The notes under the pieces were generated by a model, which saw nothing but the letters and a program-made list of their open reading frames with translations, searched no databases and was not told where the DNA came from. From the NCBI GenBank assembly GCA_028693565.1, contig JAQUVE010000013.1:1-33366 (forward strand): a DNA stretch of 33,366 nucleotides, given 5' to 3'. The stretch is from Sulfurospirillaceae bacterium. Its GTDB lineage: Bacteria > Campylobacterota > Campylobacteria > Campylobacterales > Sulfurospirillaceae. Shown here piece by piece: positions 7,258 to 27,714 of this stretch. How positions within the stretch are numbered: the first letter of the stretch is position 1; each line of letters begins with the position of its first letter. The translations under genes and the position numbers were made by a program.

Positions 7258-7983
7258 ATGAATATTATCTCTCGAATCGTTGAATTTTCAACCTTAGAAA
7301 CTAAATGCTCTTATCTCCAAAATCATCGCACAAGGATGTCCTATAAGTACATCGAAAATGCAACAATGGAGCTTAATCATGCTTTAGTAGAACGTGGTTG
7401 GCGTCGTTTTGGCAAATATTACTCTAGACCTCAATGCCCGAATTGTAACCAATGTCTTAATCTTCGTATTGATGCACAACACTATTACTTTGGAAAATCC
7501 GCCCGAAGAACCATTAAAAAAGCAGAAGGCATTACATATGTAATTCAGAGCCCTACTATCAGTACGGAACACCTTAACCTTTATGACAAATACCATCGCC
7601 ACATGGAAATAAAACGGGGTTGGCAGTATCATTTTTTAAAGCCACAAAGTTATCATGAGCTTTATGTTAGCGGAGCAGATGGCTTTGGAAAAGAAATTTT
7701 ATATTTTTATCATGACAAACTTATTGGTGTTGATTTAATCGATTTTGTTGACGATGGGATATCTTCAATTTATTTTTATTATGATCCAGATTTTGAGAAA
7801 TATTCACTAGGTAGGCTCTCAATTTATGAACAAATTAGATTGGCTAAAGAGTATGATTTGGAATGGATATACCTAGGATATTATGTTGAAGGGTGTCAAA
7901 GCTTAAAATATAAAGCACTCTATAAACCTTTTCAGCTCTTACAAGGGAACCCTTCATTAGACGAAGATGCTATTTGGCTCTAA
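7258..7983 (+). CDS. bpt: Aspartate/glutamate leucyltransferase (Bpt/ATE family)
   Basis: CSYLQNHRTRMSYKYIENATMELNHALVERGWRRFGKYYSRPQCPNCNQCLNLRI; family hallmark N-terminal Cys motif and C-terminal GYYVEGCQSLKYKALYKPFQLL. Confidence 0.92.
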   Translation: MNIISRIVEFSTLETKCSYLQNHRTRMSYKYIENATMELNHALVERGWRRFGKYYSRPQCPNCNQCLNLRIDAQHYYFGKSARRTIKKAEGITYVIQSPTISTEHLNLYDKYHRHMEIKRGWQYHFLKPQSYHELYVSGADGFGKEILYFYHDKLIGVDLIDFVDDGISSIYFYYDPDFEKYSLGRLSIYEQIRLAKEYDLEWIYLGYYVEGCQSLKYKALYKPFQLLQGNPSLDEDAIWL

Positions 7984-7986
7984 ATT

Positions 7987-8005
7987 TTGGAACTTTATTT
8001 GCTTT
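7987..8005 (+). promoter_or_regulatory. Near-consensus sigma-54 promoter upstream of J-domain gene
   Basis: TTGGAACTTTATTTGCTTT, GG-N10-GC; 33 nt before the start codon. Confidence 0.85.
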
Positions 8006-8037
8006 GATGGAATAATACTCTGTCAAAGGATGCATTG

Positions 8038-8871
8038 ATGCAAATTTCTCTTTCACATGAAATGCTTGCTATAACACTACAAGAAGATGCTAAAACATTC
8101 TATTTTCTCCAGAATTTGGCAGAAAAAAACTTTCAGAAAAAAATTGGACGAAAGAATAAAACAATTATTTTTAAAGAAGAATCAGAGCTTGTACAACGAA
8201 GATATTTTTTAAAACTCATCAGTAAACTTTATCAGAAAAAAAATGATGATCTTTTAATGCGCAATTGTATTGAAAATGCTTTGGATAAAACCATCAAAAT
8301 TACCCTTCTAAAATCAAATCAATTACTCCAGCATATTGATATTAAAATGGACATTGAAGATAACTATGCTGTCGTTTTTTCGATAGGAACGCCCAATACA
8401 TTGTTAACGTCCTATTTAAAAAACTATTTTAAAGACCATTTAGTAAGATTTAGGACCAAAAACAATACAATGACGCTTTATCCAAACTCAGCTCAAACAG
8501 CACACTTAATTGAAAAATTATTGCAACAAAAAGAGTTATTGGGTTGCTTCGTCCATTTTAAATACGATGAAGAAGACTTTCTCACTTACAAATTAAGCCT
8601 TAGAGGTCGAAAATCAAAACGAAATCATCATGGTGCACTTTATTCGCTATTGGAAGAGTATTTTAGTGTGTTAGAGTGTAAAATTGATGATTCATTTGAA
8701 ATCGTTAGAGGAAACTATTTAAAATTAGTCAAAAAGTATCACCCAGATAGTTGTGGTTTACTTGCAGATGATTTACATATAAGATATCTCAAGAAATTTC
8801 AAGAAATTCAATACGCCTATGAGATGATCAAAGTTCACTATAAGAATGAATCTCACCTAAGAATTGCTTAG
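8038..8871 (+). CDS. J-domain (DnaJ-like) protein with C-terminal J domain (track start 8035 is TTG; ATG 8038 preferred)
   Basis: C-terminal ...IVRGNYLKLVKKYHPDSCGLLADDLHIRYLKKFQEIQYAYEMIKVHY with HPD motif; long N-terminal region of unknown function. Confidence 0.8.
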   Translation: MQISLSHEMLAITLQEDAKTFYFLQNLAEKNFQKKIGRKNKTIIFKEESELVQRRYFLKLISKLYQKKNDDLLMRNCIENALDKTIKITLLKSNQLLQHIDIKMDIEDNYAVVFSIGTPNTLLTSYLKNYFKDHLVRFRTKNNTMTLYPNSAQTAHLIEKLLQQKELLGCFVHFKYDEEDFLTYKLSLRGRKSKRNHHGALYSLLEEYFSVLECKIDDSFEIVRGNYLKLVKKYHPDSCGLLADDLHIRYLKKFQEIQYAYEMIKVHYKNESHLRIA

Positions 8872-8874
8872 GTG
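8854..8874. terminator. Hairpin at overlapping convergent stops of J-domain gene and rpoN
   Basis: CACCTAAG-aattg-CTTAGGTG, perfect 8-bp stem; plus-strand TAG 8869-8871 and minus-strand TAA 8868-8870 lie in the right arm. Confidence 0.6.
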
Positions 8875-10145
8875 TTAAATTGTAGTAAATAAAGCTTTTT
8901 GCGTTCCGATGAACTAGCAATATTGAATTGCTGTCTGTACTTTGTTATCGTTCGCCTTACCATTTTGATAGAAAATTGCTTTTCAATCATCTCTAGAAGC
9001 TTAAGGTCACTGAGCGGCTTTAATCTATTTTCTGCTTTGACTAATTCTAACATATACTCTTTAATTGCACTATTGGATATATCTTCCTCTAAAGCAGTGG
9101 CAAAAAATTGTTTTAATGGAATCACACCTCTTTGACATGATAAATATTTCCCCGCTATAGCACGTGATATCGTTGAAGGGTTTCTACCTAAGTCATCAGC
9201 CAAGTCTTTAAGTTTCATAGGTTTAATGGCTTTTCCAAAGAAAAAATCATATTGGTATTCTACGATCATGAGCCCTATTTTATAAAGTGTTGCTTTTCGC
9301 ATTTCCAAAGCATCGACTAAATCTTTTGCATCTTTTATCTTTTGTGCCACAAATAAATGTGTTTCATCAACACCTTCTGTATCAATAATGATTTCAGGAT
9401 AATATGAATCATTGAGTTGAACTTCAATTACACCATTTTTATCATAAACAAAAATATCAGGGATAACCTCTTTTTCATCCTCTAAAAAATCTATTGCTGG
9501 GGGATTTCTAAATCTTTTGATCACTGAAAGTGCTTCATGAAAATGAGGCTCTTTACCAAAAGATTCAATGATTTCAAAATTTTCAATCAACGTTTCAGTT
9601 AAGAGGTAAAGTTCATTATCTATCTCTAAATCTTGCAATTGAAATAAAAACGCCTCTTTAAAATCAATAGCACCAATGCCTAAAGGCTCCAAATAAGCAA
9701 ATCTCTGCCTGATTTTTTCTACCTCGCTAGAGGTAGTATTATATTTTATGGCTATCTCGTGAATAGCACTTTGTTCAAAATAGCCTTCAGAGTTAATATT
9801 TTCGATAATGTCATAAGCAATATTTTGTGAGTTAATAGTTGGGAAAAGTGGAGGATTTACCTGTTCGTATAAGACTTGGAAAAGAGATTTTTTATCAAAA
9901 GTCAATGCCTCAATAGTGCTCGAAACAGAATCTTTTGATATTTGTGAAAAAAAACTCTTTTTTTCAAAACGCTTATCCTCTTTTTCACAACCTGATTTAA
10001 CTTGAATAAAAGGATTTTCTTGAACAAAAGGTTCTAATGTTTCAACCAATGTATCAAGATTCGATTGAAGGATTGGTAGCCAGCCTCTTAAGGTGGATGA
10101 AAATTTTTGTTTGGTGGTTTGTGTTCCAGAAACTCGTAATTTCAA
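8868..10145 (-). CDS. rpoN: RNA polymerase sigma-54 factor
   Basis: RGWLPILQSNLDTLVETLEPFVQENPFIQV N-terminus; LADDLGRNPSTISRAIAGKYLSCQRGVIPLKQFF; RRTITKYRQQFNIASSSERKK (RpoN box-like). Confidence 0.95.
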   Translation of the reverse strand: MKLRVSGTQTTKQKFSSTLRGWLPILQSNLDTLVETLEPFVQENPFIQVKSGCEKEDKRFEKKSFFSQISKDSVSSTIEALTFDKKSLFQVLYEQVNPPLFPTINSQNIAYDIIENINSEGYFEQSAIHEIAIKYNTTSSEVEKIRQRFAYLEPLGIGAIDFKEAFLFQLQDLEIDNELYLLTETLIENFEIIESFGKEPHFHEALSVIKRFRNPPAIDFLEDEKEVIPDIFVYDKNGVIEVQLNDSYYPEIIIDTEGVDETHLFVAQKIKDAKDLVDALEMRKATLYKIGLMIVEYQYDFFFGKAIKPMKLKDLADDLGRNPSTISRAIAGKYLSCQRGVIPLKQFFATALEEDISNSAIKEYMLELVKAENRLKPLSDLKLLEMIEKQFSIKMVRRTITKYRQQFNIASSSERKKLYLLQFNT

Positions 10146-12696: not shown

Positions 12697-13923
12697 ATGA
12701 AAAAAAGTGTTAAAAAAGTAGTCCTAGCATATTCTGGTGGACTTGATACCAGCATTATTTTAAAATGGCTCCAAGATGAATATAAGTGCGAAGTTGTCAC
12801 ATTTACAGCAGACATCGGTCAAGGTGAAGAATTAGAACCAGCACGTAAAAAAGCCATCTCTTTAGGCATCAAACCTGAAAATATTTTTATTGAAGATTTA
12901 AAAGAAGAATTTGTAAAAGATTATGTATTTCCTATGTTTAGAGCTAATGCTATTTATGAAGGGGAGTACCTTCTTGGAACATCTATTGCACGCCCTTTGA
13001 TTGCAAAAAGACAAGCGGAAATTGCTGCAATGGTTGGTGCTGATGGCGTTAGTCATGGCGCAACCGGTAAAGGCAATGACCAAGTACGTTTTGAACTTGG
13101 CTATTTGAGTATGAATTCGGATTTAGTCATCATTGCTCCATGGCGTGAATGGGATCTTAATTCGCGTGAAAAATTACTTGCTTATGCTGAAAAAAACGGT
13201 ATCAGCATCGAGAAAAAGCCTGGCAAATCACCCTACTCCATGGATGCTAACTTACTTCATATCTCTTATGAGGGTCTTGTACTTGAAAATCCTGCTATGG
13301 AGCCTGAAGAAGATATGTGGCGCTGGACTGTAAGTCCAGAAAATGCGCCAGATAAAGCTGAAGTCATTGAATTAACGTATGAAAAAGGAGATCCTATTGC
13401 TCTTAATGGTGAAAAACTCTCTCCTGCTACTATGCTTACAAAACTCAATGAAATTGGATGTAAACACGGCATCGGAAGAATTGATATCGTTGAAAATCGT
13501 TTCGTTGGAATGAAAAGTCGCGGATGTTATGAAACGCCTGGTGGTACGATTATGCTTCGTGCGCATCGAGCCATTGAGAGCATTACGTTAGATCGTGAAG
13601 CAGCCCATTTTAAAGACGAATTGATGCCACGTTACGCAAAAACAATTTACAACGGCTTCTGGTTTTCACCTGAGCGTGAAATGATGCAAGCAGCAATTGA
13701 TAAATCGCAAGAAAATGTTAATGGTACTGTCAAAATCAAGCTTTATAAAGGCAACGTTTCAGTTATCGGAAGAGATTCAAAAACCAATAATCTTTTCAAT
13801 GAAGCATTTTGTACTTTTGAAGAAGACGAAGTTTACAATCAAAAAGATGCAGAAGGTTTTATTAAACTCAATGCATTACGATTTATTATTAGCGGTAAAA
13901 ATAGAAAAAAACAAGGCAAATAA
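12697..13923 (+). CDS. argG: Argininosuccinate synthase
   Basis: [50 protein letters not shown]. Confidence 0.97.
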
Positions 13924-27695: not shown

Positions 27696-27714
27696 AAAGC
27701 AAATTAAGTTCCAA
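27696..27714 (-). promoter_or_regulatory. Near-consensus sigma-54 promoter for flgH
   Basis: Minus strand TTGGAACTTAATTTGCTTT, GG-N10-GC, about 58 nt upstream of flgH ATG. Confidence 0.85.

Follow-up and report, generated by a model that had tools for sequence, protein, structure and literature searches.

A J-domain protein gene behind a conserved sigma-54 promoter motif in the Campylobacterales, a probable member of the flagellar regulon

In contig JAQUVE010000013.1 of a Sulfurospirillaceae bacterium (33,366 nt, the whole stretch of DNA analysed and hereafter the window), a gene encoding a J-domain protein lies between bpt and rpoN and is preceded by what appears to be a sigma-54 promoter. 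This arrangement raises the question of whether the protein belongs to the sigma-54 (RpoN) flagellar regulon and, if so, what it would do there. A sequence-only reading of this DNA had placed the site, the 19-mer TTGGAACTTTATTTGCTTT (7987-8005), just after the bpt stop codon, with a Shine-Dalgarno element AAAGGA, and 33 nt ahead of the J-gene ATG. The placement and the Shine-Dalgarno element stand, while the distance from the 19-mer to the ATG at 8038 is 32 nt, or 34 nt when counted from the 17-mer at 7987-8003. The features on which the analysis rests are as follows.

7258-7983, plus strand: bpt (arginyl/leucyl-tRNA-protein transferase), upstream neighbour; Pfam ATE_C/ATE_N
7987-8003, plus strand: predicted sigma-54 promoter, TTGGAAC-TTTAT-TTGCT, matching the C. 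jejuni sigma-54 consensus and conserved before 94/130 orthologue loci
8012-8017, plus strand: expected transcription start of the J gene, from the 8-13 nt spacing in C. jejuni (PMC3847290)
8025-8030, plus strand: Shine-Dalgarno element AAAGGA, read directly
8038-8871, plus strand: J-domain protein gene, 277 aa, product predicted to be cytoplasmic; NCBIfam NF006503, 404 bits
8038-8622, plus strand: N-terminal region of the protein, ~195 aa, predicted alpha/beta; AlphaFold2 pLDDT 81
8656-8832, plus strand: J domain, residues 207-265; Pfam PF00226, E=6.5e-8, 33 bits against a cut-off of 27.8
8868-10145, minus strand: rpoN (sigma-54), convergent with the J gene; Pfam Sigma54_DBD, CBD, AID
27698-27714, minus strand: predicted sigma-54 site of flgH (Pfam PF02107), identical to the J-gene site at 16 of 17 bases

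The site and its copies in the window and the genome

The site before the J gene has the composition of a sigma-54 promoter, with a -24 element TTGGAAC (GG at 7989-7990), a 5-nt spacer and a -12 element TTGCT (GC at 8001-8002), which places GG and GC 10 nt apart in a TGG and TTGC context. The consensus determined for C. jejuni by dRNA-seq, GGaa-N6-tTGCTt (PMC3847290), equals the TGGAAY-form motif found here. An AGGA or GGAG-type element is seen ahead of most orthologue starts. The bpt stop codon (TAA, 7981-7983) falls just 5' of the site, and bpt is considered to lie outside the J-gene unit, as the upstream genes differ in other families. At the other end of the gene, the stop codons of the J gene (8869-8871) and rpoN (8868-8870) overlap, and no terminator-like element was found between the two genes in the window; a sigma-54 transcript of the J gene could run antisense into rpoN from the overlap at 8868-8871.

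Near identity to a candidate site before flgH had been part of the original proposal and is borne out, as TTGGAACTTAATTTGCTTT, which starts at 27714 on the minus strand, agrees with the J-gene 19-mer at 18 of 19 positions. Exact matches to TTGGAACN5TTGC number three in the window, namely these two sites and one inside argG at 12974. With up to two mismatches allowed, 15 matches were observed against 13 expected, which is no enrichment, so that the window taken by itself offers weak evidence; this count is what speaks for one alternative, a chance sequence match devoid of promoter activity. The 2.78-Mb draft genome contains exactly four copies of the fuller TTGGAACN5TTGCT, before the J gene, flgH and flgI and inside one ORF, and the first three lie between genes, each with a start codon 30-60 nt downstream. 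Genome-wide, the looser pattern TGGMAYN5TTGC occurs 48 times versus 9 for a reversed control pattern. Intergenic TGGAAY-form sites followed by a start codon at a suitable distance are found before flgB, a flgF/G-type gene, flgE, flgH, flgI, fliK and a pseB-like gene, as well as two nif-associated-looking genes (ArsC-like and Rop-like). Judged by the genes that its intergenic sites precede, the TGGAAY form is mainly a flagellar sigma-54 motif in this organism, and the J gene has its promoter motif in common with flgH, flgI, flgB, flgF/G, flgE and fliK of the same genome, as a class II gene does.

Several other sites were observed along the way. One precedes a flgP-like lipoprotein gene (L206:1410-1947), an assignment that is our own reading, with no Pfam hit. 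Those ahead of the ArsC-like and Rop-like genes are at L177 and L185 (G000:C94, C123); genes of this kind are found with nitrogenase genes, and sigma-54 in this genome may serve nitrogen fixation or nif-type genes too. Another site, TGGAATATGTTTTGCTT at L174:1501 (G000:C75:11274), precedes an ORF of 47 aa (MEILDGVKLVVMLKDKIEEAKKNDQ...) with no Pfam match, possibly a small protein of the sigma-54 regulon. The J gene and flgH are ~18-19 kb apart in the window (8038 versus 27641) and in those f1 genomes that were checked; in two f10 genomes (G071:C82; G058:C126) the distance is ~7 kb.

Conservation and loss of the site across the order

The sequence-only reading had named lack of conservation before orthologues as one of the outcomes that would refute its proposal. 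We assembled 130 usable loci encoding the J-domain protein from across the order, mostly through genome searches and the regions around the matches, and called a site when GG and GC were both present, with at most 3 mismatches of 12, within 110 nt of the start. This revealed a site in 94 of the 130 loci, with at most 1 mismatch of 12 in 66, compared with 4 of 440 background genes in the same loci (three of the four being rpoN itself) and 0 of 440 at the stricter level; as the loci are related and not independent, the tree and the spread over families outweigh these raw counts. Dinucleotide shuffles of the same upstream sequences reached the site call in 1.2% and at most 1 mismatch in 0.03%. 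At positions outside the GG/GC core used as a filter, A6, T14 and T17 are present in all 94 sites and T13 in 93, and the site lies mostly at -48 to -53 from the start.

The site is kept before orthologues in at least nine families. In the window's family and some Campylobacteraceae the upstream gene is bpt, and in other families it is unrelated, so the J-gene site is not a remnant of whatever gene lies next to it. The site also stays ahead of divergent second copies or paralogues (L151, L155, L156, L158 and L159, in families f1, f5, f17 and f18), and most divergent paralogues are preceded by it. On a maximum-likelihood protein tree, the site label needs ~6 changes, versus 32 for shuffled labels, and the simplest reading of this pattern is that the site was ancestral in the order and was lost several times, about six. 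Conservation on this scale, set against 0/440 background genes at no more than one mismatch, refutes a chance match as a general explanation, and we assign that alternative a negligible probability. The site thus passes the conservation test with ample room to spare, and on these alignments a sigma-54 promoter before the J gene is near certain.

The clades that lack the site include those resembling C. jejuni and H. pylori. It is missing from all 13 loci of f11 g28, which from synteny (Cj1035c-Cj1034c) we take to be the C. jejuni group, and bpt ends only ~10-40 nt ahead of the J gene there. It is also missing from all five loci of the H. pylori-like f14 g49, in which the gene sits between mnmA and nadD-nikR-exbB; this copy, between mnmA and nadD, is presumably HP1336. 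Identity with HP1154, a listed class II gene beside murG, was considered and rejected on the position of the locus between mnmA and nadD. Further losses, with the protein retained, are seen in f14 g41, f14 g65, f13, f16 and f23. A search for a hidden sigma-54 site serving operon copies in the site-less clades, up to 2.5 kb upstream, produced no convincing one, the sites with 1-2 mismatches in f5 falling within an upstream coding gene. As the protein stays where the site has been lost, its function does not depend on sigma-54 control. Loss of the site from these two groups of well-sampled relatives of C. jejuni and H. pylori may be why the gene went unnoticed, since these two species supply most of the RpoN literature. 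The open-access papers searched yielded no mention of Cj1034 or HP1336 and no J-domain protein tied to RpoN flagellar control in Campylobacterota, and the J gene is absent from the H. pylori class II gene list in PMC2864241.

The protein and its occurrence with flagella and rpoN

The unusual layout ascribed to the protein was confirmed, with the J domain (residues 207-265) at the C-terminal end of the 277-aa chain and a region of ~195 aa of no matched fold ahead of it. The HPD motif (residues 235-237; 8740-8748) lies inside the J domain and is found in 41/41 aligned orthologues and in 129/130 loci. Foldseek searches with two AlphaFold models (pLDDT 73 and 81) identified no convincing solved fold, with nothing below E=0.01; the N-terminal region had no match at E≤0.001, and the relatives in the PDB cover the J domain only. 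No membrane segment is predicted (maximum 19-residue hydropathy 0.7). The protein thus has a J domain with HPD in common with DnaJ, CbpA and DjlA, while differing from them in the C-terminal position of that domain, in the unmatched fold of its ~195-residue N-terminal alpha/beta region and in having no predicted membrane segment.

Two identities were rejected. DnaJ proper (type I/II), in which an N-terminal J domain leads into a G/F region and substrate-binding domains, does not fit a protein whose J domain is C-terminal and which has no other DnaJ Pfam domains. Adenylosuccinate lyase is the name borne by NF006502, NF006503 and NF006504, NCBIfam equivalog models that describe this family and score 404-502 bits, above their cut-offs (window 8038-8871, L080 and L071); Pfam finds only a DnaJ domain and no lyase domain, and the NCBIfam name is wrong.

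Across 299 genomes of the order, with presence defined as a family-profile match at E≤5e-23, the J-domain protein was found in 145, of which 143 have flgH and 139 have rpoN; where flgH is lacking, in two cases, the genome is incomplete or fragmented. The members of f11 (2) and f17 (5) that have no flagellum also have no J-domain protein, so that its occurrence follows flagella in the way expected of a flagellar class II gene. It is also absent from the Arcobacter-like families f9 and f19, most of whose members have flgH but no rpoN, in agreement with a published survey that reports the loss of RpoN, FlgRS, FliA and other ancestral flagellar accessories in Arcobacter (PMC9321776). In families f4 and f7, rpoN and flgH are present but the family profile detects no copy, and the protein is therefore not universal in the order.

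These distributions bear on the possibility that the protein is a general co-chaperone, another DnaJ/CbpA-like protein with no flagellar client that is co-expressed with flagella since motile cells make more protein. Such a role would agree with a J domain as the sole domain recognised by Pfam and with persistence of the protein in site-less clades, but it sits poorly with a separate and conserved N-terminal region, with a promoter conserved across deep divergence, with loss of the protein together with flagella in f11 and f17, and with the other J proteins that the same genomes already hold (additional J-domain-only matches). We consider it quite improbable.

Convergence of the J gene with rpoN holds in the window, in nearly all f1 loci and in several f11 loci, but adjacency, which the sequence-only reading had stressed, is not a general rule and is confined to the window's family and some Campylobacteraceae. 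The two genes are not linked in f10, f14, f15, f17 and f18, and the site is still kept there. In f18 (L115:4-2471), fliD-fliS and a small FliT-like ORF with no Pfam match lie convergent to the J gene. Where linkage does occur, it invites the idea of a feedback regulator, in which J protein made from the sigma-54 promoter would hand RpoN or FlgR over to DnaK or to a protease and so curtail the sigma-54 phase; antisense control could be added in the window's family by read-through into the 3' end of rpoN, past overlapping stop codons and with nothing terminator-like separating the two genes. A precedent is the control of sigma-32 by DnaK/DnaJ in E. coli (Noguchi 2014, as cited in PMC11816700). 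Retention of the site in families where the linkage is absent, together with the finding that four of the five protein-bearing f23 genomes have no rpoN match, argues against this idea, which we regard as unlikely.

A proposed role in flagellum biogenesis

Membership of the flagellar regulon, as originally proposed for the J gene, is supported by the site in at least nine families, by the motif shared with flagellar genes and by confinement to flagellate genomes; C. jejuni-like and H. pylori-like genomes lack the site. With that restriction, the comparative sequence evidence makes it very likely that the J gene belongs to the sigma-54 flagellar regulon. We further consider it probable that its product is both a member of this regulon and a dedicated flagellar co-chaperone of DnaK, a reading based on the conserved and correctly placed promoter, the intact HPD motif and the restriction to flagellate genomes. 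The promoter is of the same type as those of the mid-class genes of Campylobacter and Helicobacter (flgE, flaB, flgK, fliK, flgI, flgH and others); unlike the structural parts made from that class, the J gene encodes a predicted soluble cytoplasmic J-domain protein.

Under the dedicated co-chaperone reading, RpoN holoenzyme would transcribe the J gene at the same time as the rod, ring, hook and fliK genes, once the cell has an assembled export apparatus and active FlgR. In the cytoplasm, the N-terminal alpha/beta region may then bind a flagellar client, or a small number of them, and the J domain would stimulate DnaK such that the client is held or remodelled. Our first guess for the client would be a mid-class export substrate (a rod, hook, hook cap or filament protein) and our second the RpoN/FlgR machinery, which the rpoN adjacency in the window's family favours, though only locally. 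The protein could act in assembly or export, as first suggested, or in RpoN/FlgR turnover; the papers searched contained no mutant data on motility or assembly. Flagellum synthesis in E. coli needs DnaK, DnaJ and GrpE (Shi et al. 1992, as cited in PMC11816700), and DnaK of P. aeruginosa binds flagellin (PMC11816700).

FlgX (Cjj81176_0199), the stator chaperone of C. jejuni, resembles the proposed role in being cytoplasmic, dedicated to the flagellum and from the Campylobacterota. It was rejected as the identity of the J protein, being the product of a different gene (~153 codons) whose source paper has no J domain or DnaJ in its text.

A broader hypothesis, to which we give an even chance, is that the protein is a flagellum-dedicated Hsp70 co-chaperone found order-wide in Campylobacterota, placed in the ancestor under sigma-54 activation at the hook-basal-body checkpoint and equipped with a new N-terminal fold that selects its flagellar client, and that lineages resembling C. 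jejuni and H. pylori retained the protein but took it out of the sigma-54 regulon. The rewiring in these two lineages would offer a testable case of regulon turnover. The family also exposes a database error, in that three NCBIfam equivalog models name the J protein adenylosuccinate lyase, a misnaming likely to spread through automatic annotation. For the order, which has major pathogens and many free-living species, the analysis would add a conserved and apparently unstudied gene to the flagellar regulon, and it may offer a tangible way into the long-standing finding that flagellum synthesis depends on the DnaK system.
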